From Deltaproteobacteria bacterium (GTDB lineage: Bacteria > Myxococcota_A > UBA796 > UBA9615), in the NCBI GenBank assembly GCA_023954745.1, contig JAGSHC010000044.1:1-34007 (forward strand): a stretch of DNA of 34,007 nt, in the 5' to 3' direction. Positions within the stretch are counted from its first letter, which is position 1, and every line of letters starts with the position of its first letter. Positions 23,206 through 31,204 of the stretch are shown piece after piece. Made by a program: the position numbers and the translations under genes. A model generated the notes under the pieces. It did no database searches and was not told the origin of the DNA. It worked only from the letters and a program-made list of their open reading frames with translations.

Positions 23206-23895
23206 CTACGAGGAGCGCTTCTCGAGGAAGCGCTTCGCCGTGGCCTCGACCCCTTCGCCCACCGTCTCCCAGTCCTTGAGGAAGGCAGCGTTGCCCTTGT
23301 CCGTCAGGGTGTGGTTGAACAGCTGACGCAGGACCTTGAAGGGCATCGTGCTGACGTGCGCACCGATGCGCGACACCTGAGTGACGTGCTGCGGGTGGCG
23401 GATGGACGCCGCGAGCACCTTGGTGTCGTAGAAGTAGTTCTCGTAGCAACCGACGATGTCGGCGATGAGCTCGCAGCCGTCGTGGCCGATGTCATCGAGA
23501 CGCCCCACGAAGGGCGAGATGTAGGTCGCGCCAGCCTTCGCGGCGAGCAGCGCCTGGTTCAGGCTGAAGCACAGCGTCACGTTGACGGGGGTGCCGTCTC
23601 CGCTCAGCGACTTGCAGGTCTTGAGGCCCTCGGGAGTCAGCGGCACCTTGATCACGACGTGCTCGTGAATCTGGCGGAGCAGGTGCGCCTCCCGGAGCAT
23701 GCCCTCGGAGTCCTGCGCGACGACCTCGGCGGACACGGGGCCCTGCACGATCTCGCAGATCTCGTAGATGGTCTCTGCAAAGTCGCGACCCTCGCGGGCA
23801 ATGAGCGAGGGGTTCGTGGTGCAACCATCGATGATCCCCCAGGAGGCAGCCTCCCGGATCTCGTCGAGGTTCGCGGTGTCGATGAAGAGCTCCAT
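23206..23895 (-). CDS. tal: Transaldolase, short TalC/fructose-6-phosphate-aldolase type
   Basis: A 229-residue class I aldolase-type enzyme. It moves a dihydroxyacetone unit between sugar phosphates in the non-oxidative pentose phosphate pathway or, in FSA members, cleaves fructose 6-phosphate. The start [13 protein letters not shown], the [11 protein letters not shown] loop and the Schiff-base lysine K83 in VVIKVPLT are typical of the short family, as are [12 protein letters not shown] and [12 protein letters not shown]. Choosing transaldolase over FSA needs residues I cannot judge by eye. The ATG at 23895 is used because the upstream frame is not conserved; only weak GGAT precedes it. It is flanked by the regulator and the glycosyltransferase cluster without obvious linkage. 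Confidence 0.9.
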
Positions 23896-24013: not shown

Positions 24014-26449
24014 TCAGGGCAGGCGAGGCACCGACCTCGGGGCATCCTGGCTCCCCGTCGGCACCGTCCCGCGCAGAACCCCCGTGGCCCTCTGGGCCGC
24101 CCGGCGGGAGATCTCCGCCCGCTCGTGACGACCCATCAGCGAGTAGAGCGTCGCGAGCTGCTGGTGCGCCTCGACCATGTATGGCGCCACCTCGATGGCC
24201 TTCTGGAGACCGTACTCCTGCTCCGGGAAGCTCTCCGTGGGTGCCTCGGGGTCGCGATGCAGCGCGGAGTAGCTCATCCAGGAACGCGCCTTCAAGGTGG
24301 AATAGAGGAGGTCGTCGGGAGTGAGTCCCGCCCCCGCTCGGGCACTTGCCAGCGGCTTCAACGGGTCCCCGAACAGACCAGAGAAGAAGGGACGACTCCA
24401 GACCGGCGCCACCTCACCGCTCCGTCGGTTGCTCGCCCGCTCTCCCTCGGGGAGAACGCGGAACACACGGAACCACGAATTCTCCCAGGCCAACTCGAAG
24501 TGCTCGAGGGTCTCCGGTGCGAACGACATCCGCGCAGAAGCCGAGTCCGCCGGCCAGTCCATGGCCGCCGCCACGTAGCGCTGACTCATTCGAGGGTCCG
24601 TGCGCAACGTGAAGTGAGCTTCGTGCACATACCAGGAAGTCTCAAAGCTCCGCGCCGTCTCCCAGAGCACCTCCTCGGTGGCGAAGCGGGCGGGCACGAT
24701 GGTCTCCAGTCGCTCGAGCAGGTCGCCCTCGAAGAAGCAGTGAAGCACCGTGGGCCGGTCGAGATAGGTCAGCAAGAACGGGCTGATGTGGAAGGACGCC
24801 AGGACCACCTCGTCCTCTGCCGTGTTGTCCCCCACCCACGCGCTCAACTCCGCGAACCCGTCCGGGGGGAAGACCACCACCTCGCTCACGCTGTCGGCGT
24901 CTGCGGCGATCGACGCCTCGAAGAGCCCCTCCAAGCTGGGCGCGACACCGAGGCCCTGCAGGGCAACCAGCCCGACGAGCGGAGCGAGGGTGAGTCGCCA
25001 CAGCCAGCGGAGTCGCCGGAAGTACGCCCACGCGACGGCTCCGAGCAGCGCCAGGGGAACAGCTGCGAACAACATCAGCTTCAGGAACAGCAGGTAGGAA
25101 ACGACACACGCGCACGTGAGCCACAGCACGAACCACGCGATGAGGGGCGACATGGGATCGCTCGGCCCATCCCCTTCGAGCAGGCCCGTCGGTGGACGGC
25201 GGATCGGGCCCGGCCAAGGACGGCCCGCACGTCGCAGCTCCCCGAAGAGCGCGATGAGCCCGGGAATCGCGACTGCAGCGAGCCAGGGCCAGTCCCTCGC
25301 GAGGCGTCGCAGCGTCGGAGACCGGTAGTTGCCGGTCCAGTAGTGGCGGGCGTGGAACGACAGCTCCGTGGGGTCCAGCGGCTTCCCGCCGAAGGTGGTG
25401 AGCTTCGCGACGATCGTCTCCCACGCGTGCGTGTACGACGCTTCGCCCGGCAAGAGCAGCTTTCCGCCGAAGACGACCGCGACGCCCACCAGTAGCGGCA
25501 CGAATCGCGGCAACCCCGAGCCCCTCGCGGCCAGCAGGGCGGCCAGCGTCAGCCCAAGCGCAGCCAGGGCGGGGGTCGAGGTGGGAAACTGGTCGTAGCT
25601 GAGGCTCCAGGGCCCCAGCGAGGCGATGACGGCGGGGAGGAACATCCCAAAGGCGGCCAGCCCCACCTGCCCGGGCTCAACCCGTCCAAAGACCCACGCC
25701 GACGCGAGAAAGACCAACAAGAGCAAGGAGTAGAAGGTCACGACCTTCCAGAGCAACAGGGCGGCGGCGAGGAACAGCCCTGCGGTCAGCGCGCGCCCCC
25801 AGTGCGGTTTGCGAGCCCAGCCGGCGAGCGCCGCGATGTGGAAGAGGAGCACCGGGAACGCAAGGTCCTCGCGGTACAGGACCGCCCCGTTGCCTCGCTC
25901 CGCGACGGGGAGCGCGAGTCCGTAGAGCAGGGCCGCGAGCAGCGACGCGTCCCGACGCCTCGTCACGACCCAGGCGAGCCAGGCCATGGGAATCACCGCC
26001 GACGCAGCGATCACTCGGGTGAGGAAGCGAGTGAAGCGGGCGATGGACCAGTCCGGCGGACGATGTCGAGCCAGCGTCCCGTACAGGAGCTCCTGCCCGA
26101 TGGTGTCGCTCCGGGTCGGGTAGCCGTCGGGCGCTTGCATCCGCGCGTCCACGGCGGGGATCTCCTCCCCCTCCGCCACCATCCGCACGTACCGGAAGCG
26201 CTGCGCGGACTCCATCCAATAGGTGGCGTCGTCATCCCGGCCCAGCTTGCTGAAGGTGCCCACCTTCGCGCTCCAAGCCCCCACCCCGATGGTGGCCAGG
26301 GAGACGACGAAGATGAGGATCAAGGACAGCTCCCGCCCCGCGTCGCGCGCCCAGCGAGCGCGAAAGCCGTCGCGCCGGTCGCGCAGCTGCTCGGCCACCC
26401 TGGGAGACATCTGTTCACCGGGTCGGTACCCGTCTGGGACCTCGCTCAC
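24014..26449 (-). CDS. STT3/PMT-like integral-membrane GT-C glycosyltransferase with TPR-like tail
   Basis: A protein of about 811 residues. An acidic/basic N-terminus leads to a transmembrane helix (about residues 41-58) and the loop RDDDATYW (71-78), reminiscent of the DxD region of STT3/PMT-type enzymes. Ten or more further hydrophobic segments follow to about residue 500. A soluble part then begins [18 protein letters not shown]. Its placement (Asn-Thr before a beta strand, then YLDRPTVL) recalls the STT3 region around WWDYG, but that motif is not there. A final stretch, [23 protein letters not shown], looks like a TPR. GT-C enzymes transfer sugars from polyprenyl-phosphate donors. The GTG at 26449 overlaps the previous stop (GTGA); ATG 26410 is possible. 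It is the last gene of a four-gene cluster. Confidence 0.75.
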
Positions 26450-28443
26450 GGCGCCGCCGTCGCCGTCGAGACGTGATGCCCAAGGGTGAAGAGACGCTCG
26501 GCCGTCAGCAGCGCGACGGGATGGGTCGGCTGCTTGGCGAGGACCGCGTCCACCCCGTCCCTCGCCTTGCGGAAGTCGCCGGCCAACAGAGCATCGGCGG
26601 CCTCGAGAGCCTGCGCATCGGCCTCCCAAGGCCCAGCCACGTCCGCCCCGCTCTCCAGCCGATGACGAGCGAGGTGCACGAAGTCCCAGGGGTTCGGCGC
26701 GATCTCGCTTCCGCGCTGCCAGAGGCGCAGCGCGAGGTCCCGCTCGCCCCGTTGAAGGTGCAGTCCACCCCGCGCGAGGTCCCGGCGAGAGAGCGCCTCG
26801 CGGCCCACCCGGTCCCGCGTCCAGCCGGGGCCGCGGCGCAAGCCCTGGAGCACCTCCTCGTCGAAGGCACGCTCCGTCCGCCCCGCGTCGGGTGACGGAT
26901 CGGGGTGCGCCGCATGAAGACGCAGGAGCAGCCCGTGAGGTTGGCGGGCGGCGAGGAGCTCGGGCGCGATGAAGAAGTCGTTGACGAAGACGTCCACCGG
27001 AGGCCCGTGAGCGACGATGGCCCTCAGGGTGTGTTCGTGCTGGAGACCTGGCTTCGCCCCACCAATGGCCAGCCGCTCCGACTCCGTGAACCCGGCGGGA
27101 ATGGCCGCACTCCGGGCCGCGAGGTCGGGCAACGCGAGCCCCTCGAGCATATGGAGGCCGAACACGAACAGGTCGGGACGCCTCCGCTCCCACACGCGCG
27201 CCGCCAGAGCCGGCATCAGCCAGGAGTCTCCCCCTAGCAGGACCAGCGCGCCGGGCGTGGCGTCGTGAAGAAGCTCCGCGCTCAGTCGCCGCGGACTCTC
27301 CAGCTCACTGAAGTCGGCCTCGAGGGTGGTCTGCGACAGAGGCCCGGCCACCGCACCAATAACCAGGGTCACGCCGAGGGCAGTGGAGAGCGTTCGGCTG
27401 CGCTCCCGGAGGGGGGCAACGAGAGCCCACGCGCCGAGTCCCGCGCCCGCCGCGAGGACCGCCATGGGGCCCAGCAGGTAGCCGTGGGCGTCGGGGTTCT
27501 CGGGAAAGAAGACCCCCTGAAGGGCTGTCGGCAGGACCCCCGCGGCCACGAACACGAAGGCGACCAGCAGCGGACGAGGCCGCACCCGCCAGAGCAGCCA
27601 AAGGACAGACAGCACCGACAGAGCGAGGGCGAACCAGCCCAGGTCCGCCCGAAACACCGCCGCATGCTCACTCAAGTTTCGGGTCAGCTGCCCGGGCTCC
27701 AGGCGGTAGGAGCGGGCGTAGCTGGCCCCCGTGGCCGCCATCACGACACGCTCGAACGTCCGCGCCACCCCGAAGTCAATCTCCGGTCGGGTCATGGAGC
27801 GCAAGGGCAACCACAGGAACTGGAGCAAGCCGAAGGGAAGAAGGAGGAGCGTGGCCGTGGCCGCCGACCGGAGACTGCCTCGGCCCCTCCCGAGCGCGAG
27901 GAGGAAGAAGCCAGGCACCGCGGCGACCAGCATTGCGTGGTGCACCGCGCCCGCCACACACAGGGGAACCACGGCCAAAGCGAGTCCCCGCCTCCCGCCG
28001 CTCTGGACCGCCAGGGCGGCCAGCAACCCCAGCAGGAGTGCCAGGCCGTACAGCTCGGGACGCACGCCCTGAAGCGCCAGTCCCGGGCTCACACCAAGGA
28101 GGAGTCCGGAGGTCACCCCGGCGAGGGGCGCATGGCCCGAGGGCTCTCCCCAGAGGCGAGCCGTCGCCCGACTCACGAGGAGGGCGAGGGACCCGGCGGC
28201 AAGGGCCGCGCAGCCAGCAGAGAGCATCGAGAGGCGGAACGCGAGCGACCCGACAGGAAGCAAGGCCGCGAGCTTTCCCAGCACCATGAACGCAGGCTGG
28301 CCCGGCGGATGCGACACCCCCATGGAACCAATGACCGCCGCAAACTCTCCCCCGTCGAACCAGGTGACGCCGGGAGCGGCGAGGAGGACGTACAGCGCGA
28401 AGGTCGCCGCCGCCACACCGAGGAAGATGCGCTCTCCCATCAT
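26446..28443 (-). CDS. DUF2723-family membrane protein (GT117/TMEM260-like), complete acidic motif
   Basis: A 665-residue protein. The N-terminal 400 residues are many transmembrane helices. The DUF2723 signature is intact: WFDGGEFAAVIGSMG followed by SHPPGQP. Human TMEM260, a relative, is an O-mannosyltransferase and the family is placed in CAZy GT117. A likely activity is therefore glycosyl transfer from a lipid-phosphate donor on the outer face of the inner membrane. A soluble C-terminus (about 400-665) has helical pairs such as ALRLWQRGSEIAPNPWDFVHLA. The start ATG 28443 overlaps the previous stop by four bases (ATGA), and its own stop overlaps the next start, so the cluster is translationally coupled. 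The acceptor and sugar are unknown. Confidence 0.83.
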   Translation of the reverse strand: MMGERIFLGVAAATFALYVLLAAPGVTWFDGGEFAAVIGSMGVSHPPGQPAFMVLGKLAALLPVGSLAFRLSMLSAGCAALAAGSLALLVSRATARLWGEPSGHAPLAGVTSGLLLGVSPGLALQGVRPELYGLALLLGLLAALAVQSGGRRGLALAVVPLCVAGAVHHAMLVAAVPGFFLLALGRGRGSLRSAATATLLLLPFGLLQFLWLPLRSMTRPEIDFGVARTFERVVMAATGASYARSYRLEPGQLTRNLSEHAAVFRADLGWFALALSVLSVLWLLWRVRPRPLLVAFVFVAAGVLPTALQGVFFPENPDAHGYLLGPMAVLAAGAGLGAWALVAPLRERSRTLSTALGVTLVIGAVAGPLSQTTLEADFSELESPRRLSAELLHDATPGALVLLGGDSWLMPALAARVWERRRPDLFVFGLHMLEGLALPDLAARSAAIPAGFTESERLAIGGAKPGLQHEHTLRAIVAHGPPVDVFVNDFFIAPELLAARQPHGLLLRLHAAHPDPSPDAGRTERAFDEEVLQGLRRGPGWTRDRVGREALSRRDLARGGLHLQRGERDLALRLWQRGSEIAPNPWDFVHLARHRLESGADVAGPWEADAQALEAADALLAGDFRKARDGVDAVLAKQPTHPVALLTAERLFTLGHHVSTATAAP

Positions 28444-30041
28444 CGTGGGGTCGCCATCAAGTCGCGGAGCATCGCGGCCACCAAGGCCGCCTCCTCATCG
28501 CCGTGGGCCACGGGTCCTTCGAGATCGCGGAGAACGGTCTCCCTCAGAGAGGCGAGGGCGGCATCTTCCGGACCTACGCCAAGCTGGTGAACCACGCCAT
28601 GACGTCGCAGCAAGCTGCCCAGGAGAGCGCGCTCCGGGTCGCGGGCCTCAATGAAGACCGGGGGAGAGACGCCGGCGAAGGCTGCGGCAGGCTCGCTGCG
28701 GAGCGCGGGGCTCCAAGGCACGCCCAGCTCGGTCAGCGCGGGGGCGAGGCGCAGGCGCTCATGTTCGTGTCCGAGCAGCACCCGATGGAGGACGAGCACG
28801 TCCGGTCGGCGGCGCTCGACACCCTGGAGGTAGCCCCACACGAACGCGGTGTTGTTGCCTGAGGTCATCAACAGCGAACCGGGGGGCAGGCCGTGGGTCT
28901 GCGCGGTCGCAAAGTCTCGCGCGAGCTGATTGTCGCGGCGGTTGGCAGACAGTCCGTCCACCGCCTGAAGCCCCACTGCCACCACCGCCACCCACAACAA
29001 GGGCGTGCGCATGCGGGCGAGCGGGGTACCGTCGATGTCGTCGAGCAGGGCGATGCCCAGCGAAAGGAGCGGAACGAGCGCGAGGGCGCCCACCAACAGG
29101 TAGCCGAGGAGGTCGGGGTTGGTAGGCAATACCTTGTTCTGCGGGATGATCGTCAGAGCGTTCCCGAGGACCCACAGCGGCGCCGCCCACGCCAGCGCCC
29201 TGCGCGTCCGCGCCGCCTCGTCGTGGGCGCGGGGCTTGGACCGGAGCACGAACATCGCCACTGCGGCGAACACGACGGAGGCCGCCATCCCCGACAACGC
29301 ATGCAGCTCGAAGACCACCCCGGCGTTGGCGAGGGTCGCCTCTTCCCCTCCGAAGTTTCGGGCAAAGGCGCGTCCCAGGAGAACGTCGACGAACCTCTGG
29401 GGACTGTCGGGGACCCCCCACGCGCGGGCGGGATTGGCGACGGCCCGCAAGGGAAGCCAGGAGTAGACGGCGAAGCCAGCGAGGCCCCAACCGACTCCGT
29501 GCAGGGCATCCGAGGGGCCGAAGGAGGAGCGAAGCGCCCTCGCCAAGAGCATCCCCGGGGCGGCGGCGGCAGCGAGGAAGGGATGCACCGCGGCGGCGAG
29601 GCCGAGGAGCAGCCCGACCAGAGCTGAGGAGCGACGACCGGTGAGGCAGAGGGCGGCAGCGAGGCCGAGGAGCAGCAACAGGGCGACGAGCCCGTAGACC
29701 TCGGCCCGCTGGGCCTGCATTCGCGCGCCATAGCCGAGCAGCCCGAGACCGACGGCGAGGAGTCCAGCGCGGTCCGCGCGCCCGCCAAACAAGGCCCGGG
29801 AGATCCAAAGGAGAGGGGCCGCCAGCGCCGCCATGGCAAGCGCGGAGAGCACGTTGGTGCGAAAGGCGATGTCCCCGACCGGGAGCAACTGGGCGATCCG
29901 CGCAGGCACCAGCCAGCCCGGCTCTCCCGGCGGGTGCGGGATGCCGAGGGCCCAGGCCGAACTCGTGAGCGATCCGCCGTCGAGCCAGTCCACCGAGGGG
30001 GCGGCACCGAAGACAAAGGCAGCAAAGAGCACTGCGACCAC
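28440..30041 (-). CDS. DUF2723-family membrane protein, variant with Ser in the DGGE motif
   Basis: A 533-residue multispanning protein and paralogue of its downstream neighbour. It has DUF2723 features WLDGGSLTSSAWALG and PHPPGEPGW, and ten or so hydrophobic segments to about residue 370. The family motif DGGE is DGGS here, so the conserved Glu is lost. Since GT-C transferases use acidic residues at this extracytoplasmic loop, the protein may be inactive, or use another residue, or support its neighbour. The C-terminal 150 residues are soluble, with SGNNTAFVWGYLQGVERRRPDVLVL, similar in position to LLGGDSWLMPALAARVWERRRPDLFVF in the neighbour. The start is GTG 30041, the first in-frame start after the upstream gene; GTG 30032 is possible and there is no clear ribosome-binding site. 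Confidence 0.8.
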   Translation of the reverse strand: MVAVLFAAFVFGAAPSVDWLDGGSLTSSAWALGIPHPPGEPGWLVPARIAQLLPVGDIAFRTNVLSALAMAALAAPLLWISRALFGGRADRAGLLAVGLGLLGYGARMQAQRAEVYGLVALLLLLGLAAALCLTGRRSSALVGLLLGLAAAVHPFLAAAAAPGMLLARALRSSFGPSDALHGVGWGLAGFAVYSWLPLRAVANPARAWGVPDSPQRFVDVLLGRAFARNFGGEEATLANAGVVFELHALSGMAASVVFAAVAMFVLRSKPRAHDEAARTRRALAWAAPLWVLGNALTIIPQNKVLPTNPDLLGYLLVGALALVPLLSLGIALLDDIDGTPLARMRTPLLWVAVVAVGLQAVDGLSANRRDNQLARDFATAQTHGLPPGSLLMTSGNNTAFVWGYLQGVERRRPDVLVLHRVLLGHEHERLRLAPALTELGVPWSPALRSEPAAAFAGVSPPVFIEARDPERALLGSLLRRHGVVHQLGVGPEDAALASLRETVLRDLEGPVAHGDEEAALVAAMLRDLMATPR

Positions 30042-30064
30042 CGCAGCGTCGAAGTCGGCGCGCG

Positions 30065-31030
30065 CTATGGGTCGTCCGAGGAGTCTTGCCCCTCGCCCTC
30101 CGCGCCCACCTTGATGCCGAAGTCCACGCCGAGGGCGCCGAGGCCCGACTCGCGCGCCAGGCGCCCGAACTCGGTGTAGTAGTTCGACGAGTGCACCGAG
30201 CCGAACTCTGCTTTGGGATCGCGATTCCAGATCCAGGTGCCGCCGAGGGGATCAGCCGGCAGTTCGAAGCCCGCCTCCAGAACGGCCTTGGGCTCGGCGG
30301 GCAAGCGACCGTTGCGCCGCCGGTACTCGGAGATCACCCGACCCGCGTCACGCTCGGCGATGAGGTACTGCGTCTCCACGATCTTCACGCGCACGGCGTT
30401 CTTCGCGGGACCGTCCTGCAGGTTGGCCATCTCCTCTTCCAGGAACGCCAGGGCGACCTCGAGGTCGCGCGTTCCATCCATCAGCGAAGCGGCGAGGTTC
30501 CGCAGGTAGAAGGGCCCCTCGCCCGCGAGGGCGGCGCGCTGCATGTAGGGCCCTGCGAGCCGGCGGTCACCCTTGTACATGAAGTAGTTCATGGCCACGC
30601 CGAAGGGGAAGTACCACTCGTCGGGCATCGCGTGCATGCCCTTGGCGAACATCATCGTGCTCTGGTCCACGAACACGCCGTCCACGCGGAGCATGATGCC
30701 CCCGTACTTGTAGGCAGCCCTGAACTGCGGGTCGAGGTCCGTCGCCAGATCCATCATGTGGTAGAGCCACGAGTACCAGTCGAGGTCCTCGTCCTGGCCG
30801 AAGCGGTCCCCGAACAGGATGGTCGTCCGCACCCACAGAAGGTCTGCGAGGAACTCGTCGTACCCCATCGCGACGAGGCCCAAGGCCTTGCCGGAGGGCA
30901 AGAACTGAATGCTCTGGCTCGCGGCCTCGGGAGGGGCCCACGCCTCGACATGGCGATGCCCAGACCGCACGAGTCCGCACAAGACGAGGAACAACACCAG
31001 GGAGAGGGCGACGGGTCGGGCTTCTCGCAC
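30065..31030 (-). CDS. Single-TM protein of unknown function, first gene of the GT-C cluster
   Basis: A 321-residue protein I do not recognise by name. A basic N-terminus and one hydrophobic segment (about residues 8-23, LSLVLFLVLCGLV) predict an anchor with the bulk outside. The rest is helical and aromatic: GYDEFLADLLWVRTTILFGD, DWYSWLYHMMDLATDLDP and FRAAYKYGGIMLRVDG look like paired helices of TPR type. The C-terminus has DPLGGTWIWNRDPKAEF and ends in acidic residues. GTG 31030 is the only start because an in-frame TAG lies four codons upstream. It is 23 bases before the first DUF2723 gene and may be an assembly or acceptor-binding partner of the membrane transferases, which is an inference from position. 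Confidence 0.75.
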   Translation of the reverse strand: MREARPVALSLVLFLVLCGLVRSGHRHVEAWAPPEAASQSIQFLPSGKALGLVAMGYDEFLADLLWVRTTILFGDRFGQDEDLDWYSWLYHMMDLATDLDPQFRAAYKYGGIMLRVDGVFVDQSTMMFAKGMHAMPDEWYFPFGVAMNYFMYKGDRRLAGPYMQRAALAGEGPFYLRNLAASLMDGTRDLEVALAFLEEEMANLQDGPAKNAVRVKIVETQYLIAERDAGRVISEYRRRNGRLPAEPKAVLEAGFELPADPLGGTWIWNRDPKAEFGSVHSSNYYTEFGRLARESGLGALGVDFGIKVGAEGEGQDSSDDP

Positions 31031-31129: not shown

Positions 31130-31204
31130 TGGAGCGGGACACGAGAGTCGAACTCGCGACCCCTGCCTTGGCAAGGCAGTGCTCTACCACTGAGCTAGTC
31201 CCGC
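31130..31204 (-). tRNA. tRNA-Gly (anticodon GCC), CCA encoded
   Basis: A 75-base cloverleaf on the minus strand. The acceptor GCGGGAC pairs with GTCCCGC, the D arm is GCTC/GAGC, the anticodon stem CTGCC/GGCAG holds loop TTGCCAA (anticodon GCC), and the T arm GCGAG/CTCGT (one G-U pair) has loop TTCGACT. Discriminator T and encoded CCA complete the 3' end. The gene is 41 bases downstream of the HAD phosphatase gene and has a terminator after it. An unusual inverted repeat lies just upstream (31216-31222 against the acceptor). Confidence 0.97.

Follow-up and report, generated by a model that had tools for sequence, protein, structure and literature searches.

The window analyzed here is a stretch of 34,007 nucleotides from a Myxococcota MAG, in which four tightly packed minus-strand genes run from 31030 to 24014 in the order g1-g2-g3-g4. 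The cluster and its immediate flanks comprise the following features:

31130..31204, minus strand, tRNA-Gly(GCC) (ARAGORN), just upstream, bounding the cluster on its 5' side
30065..31030, minus strand, g1, PilG-like protein, 321 aa, GTG start, one transmembrane helix (TM)
28440..30041, minus strand, g2, TMEM260-like (DUF2723) GT-C protein with a degenerate first-loop motif (DGGS), 533 aa, GTG start
26446..28443, minus strand, g3, TMEM260-like (DUF2723) GT-C protein with canonical DxGE and a probable C-terminal TPR, 665 aa, ATG start
24014..26449, minus strand, g4, predicted DPY19/STT3-fold GT-C protein with a C-terminal TPR, 811 aa, GTG start
23206..23895, minus strand, transaldolase/FSA-like gene (PF00923, 3.8e-62), conserved downstream neighbor

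A gap of 23 nt separates g1 from g2, and 4-nt overlaps join g2 to g3 (ATGA) and g3 to g4 (GTGA). An earlier reading of the sequence alone had described one single-TM protein, two DUF2723 proteins, and one further GT-C protein packed in this way, and its coordinates, overlaps, and 23-base gap all hold. A simple hydrophobicity scale marks about 7 hydrophobic segments in g2, about 10 in g3, and about 9 in g4. The start of g4 was placed at about 26449, because the alignment of its relatives begins there; the start of the longest open frame, at 27193, was rejected.

The operon is real and conserved. Its order is kept in five genomes of the family, some of them split by contig ends, and in one order-level relative, with g1 and g4 showing 37 to 57% identity across these six genomes. 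All four genes lie in order in locus L035 (genome G003) and in L038 (G006; other family, same order). L034 (G002) carries g1-g2-g3 followed by a g4 that is cut by the contig end, L037 (G005) carries g1-g2-g3 up to a contig end, and in G004 the genes are spread over two contigs (L036, g1-g2; L059, g2-g3-g4-transaldolase). The search for the same four-gene order in other genomes, as the sequence-only reading had suggested, was thus successful in the family and in the order-level relative, and a picture of unconserved order without co-occurrence is not what the genomes show. Because the order is conserved, chance is ruled out for the arrangement of the genes. The cluster is absent from the same-genus genome G001, where a 3.6-kb contig stops past the transaldolase gene at the point where g4 would start; the absence is therefore read as an assembly gap, and true loss was rejected. 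The downstream flank is present in G001 (transaldolase, 79% identical; TetR; ETF). Genes of the relatives were called with a simple codon-usage finder, which missed genes in the lower-GC contigs L034, L035, L062, and L070 and in L074 called an antisense gene on top of g1.

Both g2 and g3 exceed the curated cut-off (24.2 bits) of the TMEM260-like family PF11028, with 42.2 bits (9.5e-11) and 58.0 bits (1.4e-15), respectively, which bears out the kinship to TMEM260 claimed for the two DUF2723 proteins; they are paralogues of about 32% identity. TMEM260 (GT117) is a protein O-mannosyltransferase, and the TPR parts of TMEM260 and TMTC enzymes are believed to guide the choice of substrate (PMC11292533). 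TMEM260-like proteins carry a first-loop motif of the form D-x-G/A-E..HPPG. The DxGE of g3 is kept in every orthologue that covers the motif region. In the g2 orthologues of the family (DGGS, DSGS, DGGS, DSGN, and DGGN), the Asp is kept and the Glu is replaced by Ser or Asn in 5/5, and the order-level g2 retains the Glu (DSGE). The Glu is present wherever the motif is recognizable in 30 control loci; a small alignment contains two further proteins without it (one in G265, near pil genes, and G004_C617). Since the conserved Glu is gone, g2 is possibly no ordinary active enzyme; judged from the motif, its activity was probably lost or changed after the family split. The order-level orthologue of g3 matches TPR_16 (8.3e-8), and g3 itself probably carries a C-terminal TPR tail. 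The pair resembles TMEM260 in PF11028, in the first-loop acidic motif of g3, and in the TPR-type tail of the g3 lineage, and differs from it in comprising two tandem paralogues, one without the motif Glu, in a bacterial, pilus-linked setting. TMEM260-like genes occur in 146/285 Myxococcota genomes. The window genome has a third one (L054 2027-3805, G000:C126) with the motif DTAE and no recognized pil genes nearby.

For g4, no Pfam family scores above its cut-off, and Pfam Dpy19 (PF10034) reaches 15.4 bits, below the cut-off of 27.2. The best solved relative by sequence profile, and the sole credible one, is DPY-19 (E 0.024). The AF2 model, built from a shallow alignment (pLDDT 64), matches DPY19 (7zlh, 2.1e-9) and STT3 (8b6l, 5.2e-9) in Foldseek. 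VIA gives a near tie over residues 39 to 666, with Z values of 26.7 for DPY19 (rmsd 9.3 over 439 residues) and 26.2 for STT3, followed by PglB (19), Pmt1/2 (17), and ArnT (16; ArnT/Aft/Emb, 16 or less). Of the STT3/PMT-like assignment made before, the STT3 part therefore stands, as a DPY19/STT3 fold, and the PMT part was rejected, as PMT structures reach a Z of 17 versus 26 for DPY19/STT3. Residues 714 to 792 match TPRs (Z about 9); soluble helical tails had been proposed on all three transferases, and such a TPR tail is found on g4 and probably on g3. The WWDYG motif of STT3 is absent from the g4 sequence and from the g4 alignment (A3), in which Glu80, located in the loop that follows TM1, never varies; the model is of low confidence at this loop. 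In CeDPY19, the proposed catalytic Glu is Glu71 in the first external loop (PMC10154233), to which Glu80 of g4 may correspond. In all, g4 shares with the C-mannosyltransferase DPY19 (PMC10154233; PDB 7zlh/7zli/7zlg) and with STT3/OST the GT-C fold over residues 39 to 666 and possibly the acidic residue in the loop behind TM1; it differs from DPY19 in being only 14% identical, in falling under the Pfam Dpy19 cut-off, and in its extra C-terminal TPR, and from STT3 in lacking WWDYG. The gene is rare, being found in 13/285 Myxococcota genomes, several of these being weak partial matches.

By contrast to the rest of the cluster, g1 is spread across the phylum: a profile search found it in 240/285 Myxococcota genomes, it is present in 43/58 relatives, and it is single-copy in the window's own genome. 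The protein consists of a signal-anchor TM (residues 4 to 31), a TPR-like helical solenoid (about 37 to 203), a long helix, and a small C-terminal β part. The AF2 model (pLDDT 82.8) shows the TM helix and the solenoid, whose best Foldseek matches are TPRs (best E 1.6e-3). The C-terminal domain (window 30131-30418, minus strand) has a conserved P-x-D-P-x-G after the long helix, which recalls pseudopilins; a GspG-like pseudopilin domain, with the motif LPxDPxGG, was considered for this part and found no backing in PDB or Pfam profile searches.

In most sampled loci, g1 adjoins type IV pilin genes, typically in the order pilC-pilS-pilR-pilA(-pilA)-g1, and a pilin gene lies within four genes of g1 in 16/19 loci outside the window's class. 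The order pilA-g1-PilH-PilI(-PilD) is found in L072, L073, L078, and L167; in the first three of these, g1 is followed by genes for an ABC ATPase, an ABC-2-type permease, and a prepilin peptidase, and L167 reads pilT-C-S-R-A-A-A-g1-PilH-PilI. Outside the phylum, PilI-g1 occurs in a KSB1 MAG and pilin-pilin-PilH-PilI-g1-pilin in a MAG labelled Proteobacteria; a scan of named records with a closer g1 alignment matched MAG records only. Among the 58 relatives, g1 and a strong PilT match are both present in 41, discordant in 2 + 2, and both absent in 13 (Fisher p = 3e-9, a generous value because related genomes are not independent). The M. xanthus order pilA-pilG-pilH-pilI corresponds to MXAN_5783-5780, with PilG termed an ABC accessory factor (PMC3546991), and PilGHI has been linked to PilA export (PMC3724824, PMC3924187). 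Since the pilA-g1-PilH-PilI order matches the published pilAGHI and g1 co-occurs with PilT, we read g1 as a PilG homologue: it very probably belongs to a PilG-type family, its likeness to MXAN_5782 being drawn from gene position and not from sequence. This position, between pilA and PilH-PilI, is found for the g1 family and not at the window itself. The sequence-only reading was right about the single TM; the protein is no nameless accessory, since its family spans the phylum, goes with type IV pili, and occupies the place of PilG. Likeness to M. xanthus PilG (PMC3546991, PMC3924187) extends to the pilA-G-H-I position in relatives, an extracytoplasmic accessory role, and presence with type IV pili (T4P); the difference is that the window's g1 heads a GT-C operon, with PilHI and PilA elsewhere in the genome. 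In one family (L040 4240-13561, L045 5088-14027), g1 follows Omp85-TamB and an 8-TM protein in place of pilA.

Within the class, further GT-C genes are common at g1 loci, where they separate g1 from pilA or from the transaldolase gene. PMT_2- or TPR-type GT-Cs lie with pilA around g1 in L042, L043, L044, L048, L051, and L053 (PMT_2 match of 2.3e-8 in L042/L043; 8 TMs plus TPR in L044), and L039 reads pilS-pilR-pilA-g1-TMEM260-like. A GT-C gene adjoins pilA or lies within one or two genes of it in L039, L044, L048, and L166, and does not do so in the window's cluster. Other class loci, arranged pilA-g1-HPPK-TAL, share the transaldolase neighbor with the window; this neighbor and g1, held in common, tie the window's cluster to the class pil loci. 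Outside the class, TMEM260-like genes near pilin or PilG genes are found in L063, L076, L132, L166, and L167, in at least five other families, and in L166 the TMEM260-like gene overlaps a pilin-like gene by 4 nt. In 114 genomes, 4 of about 125 TMEM260-like genes lie within 7 kb of g1, where about 0.25 would be expected (rough Poisson p 1e-4); most sit elsewhere, away from g1, so a general pil linkage of TMEM260-like genes in the phylum was rejected. When large multi-TM genes were counted neutrally, those close to g1 amounted to 33/305 and those far from it to 6/212 overall (p = 6e-4). The difference loses significance in subsets that leave out the window's families; without families f1, f2, and f4, the counts are 11/113 versus 3/84 (p = 0.16).

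In the lineage of the window, GT-Cs fill the PilHI slot next to g1, and PilH-PilI-PilD-PilT lie elsewhere. The cluster of the window genome adjoins neither pilA (contig C438) nor PilHI (C323). Its pil locus on C438 runs PilB-PilT-(a 7-TM + TPR protein similar to the class GT-Cs)-..PilC-PilS-PilR-PilA and holds no g1. Multi-TM proteins with C-terminal TPRs lie inside pilus loci beside PilT or pilA (L102, G000:C438, 16420-17835; L044 10230-11831). TMTC1-4 (GT105) are GT-C enzymes with a C-terminal TPR, a layout that these two proteins share; they are not part of the window's operon.

No donor synthase had been seen beside the cluster, and we likewise recognized no sugar-nucleotide or polyprenyl-phosphate-sugar synthase among the Pfam-scanned ORFs of the window, several of which are without any match. 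On C323 (L124, 3670-10725), the window genome carries PilH-PilI-PilD-PilT among genes for an NDP-sugar epimerase/dehydratase, two DegT aminotransferases, and a hexapeptide acyltransferase, and comparable sets flank PilH-PilI in L126 and L127. These genes are a plausible candidate for an amino-sugar donor route for pilus glycosylation, and they would also fit lipopolysaccharide (LPS).

We propose, at roughly even odds (probability about 0.5), that the operon encodes a module for protein glycosylation that faces the periplasm and is linked to the type IV pilus, for which we infer activity, a protein acceptor, complex formation, and the identity of the donor. g1, anchored by its TM, would use its periplasmic TPR domain to bind pilin or another protein of the pilus machine in the inner membrane and keep it close to the transferases. 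g3, with DxGE intact, and g4, with its TPR tail, would then move sugar from polyprenyl-phosphate(-linked) donors onto the g1-held protein. PMT1 and PMT2 act as heterodimers; by analogy, g2 would be a diverged g3 paralogue serving as a structural or specificity partner. Pilin itself is a tentative choice of acceptor, somewhat short of an even chance. The proposal draws on the linkage of g1 to pilin and PilHI genes, its co-occurrence with PilT, the recurrent TMEM260-like genes near pilin or PilG, the fold of g4, and the amino-sugar genes of the same genome; the separation of the cluster from pilA and PilHI in its own genome and the distance of most TMEM260-like genes from g1 count against it. 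g1 usually occurs without GT-Cs, and the core role of PilG therefore does not need them. The WxxW sequon of a DPY19-type reaction is missing from the PilA of the window genome, so C-mannosylation of this PilA was rejected, and its Ser/Thr content is not unusually high. A more sweeping version strikes us as unlikely: some of the Myxococcota would have a protein glycosylation machine dedicated to the pilus, to which PilG, as its TPR partner, presents the substrates, with unrelated GT-C families (TMEM260-like, DPY19/STT3-like, and TMTC/PMT-like) swapped at the pilin locus, the donor amino sugar supplied by genes beside PilHI, and one TMEM260-like copy turned into a noncatalytic partner.

The same genes could serve a general O- or C-glycosylation of envelope proteins, the GT-Cs modifying many exported proteins and g1 recruiting varied clients or having been captured from a pil locus and repurposed. 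The position of the cluster away from pilA in the window's lineage, the two or three transferases, which suggest several acceptors, the PilA without WxxW, and the substrate choice thought to reside in the TPR parts of TMEM260 and TMTC enzymes (PMC11292533) would all agree with this; however, g1 is single-copy in the window genome and co-occurs with T4P, and GT-Cs recur at pilin loci across several families, so that we consider it possible, if rather unlikely. An acceptor other than protein appears improbable. Many GT-Cs use lipid acceptors, and ArnT and Aft/Emb are among the matches of the g4 model, so the GT-Cs might extend a glycan that is lipid-linked or belongs to LPS/EPS, in the manner of arabinosyltransferases and ArnT, with g1 a mere neighbor; yet these matches are poorer (Z of 16 or less) than those to the protein-modifying DPY19/STT3 (about 26), TMEM260 O-mannosylates proteins, no genes for glycan assembly were recognized beside the cluster, and the linkage of g1 is conserved.

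A neighborhood by chance or history, in which pilG and the GT genes stand in one operon without a common function, is very improbable. The 4-nt overlaps, an order held in six genomes at 37 to 57% identity of g1 and g4, and GT-C/pilin neighborhoods that recur from different gene families all speak against it, even though g1 is widespread without GT-Cs and the HPPK and transaldolase genes, which have no clear link, are conserved neighbors as well.

The proposed pilus-linked module suggests that an uncultured myxobacterial lineage may attach sugars to its pili, or to further proteins of its surface, by means of enzymes resembling human TMEM260 and DPY19. In the open-access literature, we found no paper joining DUF2723, glycosyltransferase, and bacteria, nor one that treats glycosylated pilins of Myxococcota; the locus places bacterial TMEM260-like enzymes in a context that can be tested and shows PilG from a new side. 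It also adds a variant to pilus-linked GT-C systems such as TfpW, a GT-C enzyme that arabinosylates the pilin of P. aeruginosa (PMC11841053 and references therein). Relatives of the window locus share with TfpW a GT-C gene downstream of pilA; they differ in the unrelated families, the several GT-Cs, and the PilG-type partner, and pilin modification here is a proposal from genes. Since pilin glycans block phages in Pseudomonas (PMC11841053), the swapping of GT-Cs at the pilin gene could reflect an arms race of myxobacteria that is driven by phages.

A type of protein about 1,100 aa long, with 11 to 12 TMs, recurs beside PilG or pilin genes (L065 10086-13430, L064 5863-9141, L166 5979-9275, and L082 102-3380), and that of L065, the one of its kind scanned, has a spermidine-synthase-like domain. 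Beside pilA in both genomes of the genus lies a gene (L102 6569-8998, L108 1-1611) whose product looks Ser/Thr kinase-like at its N terminus.
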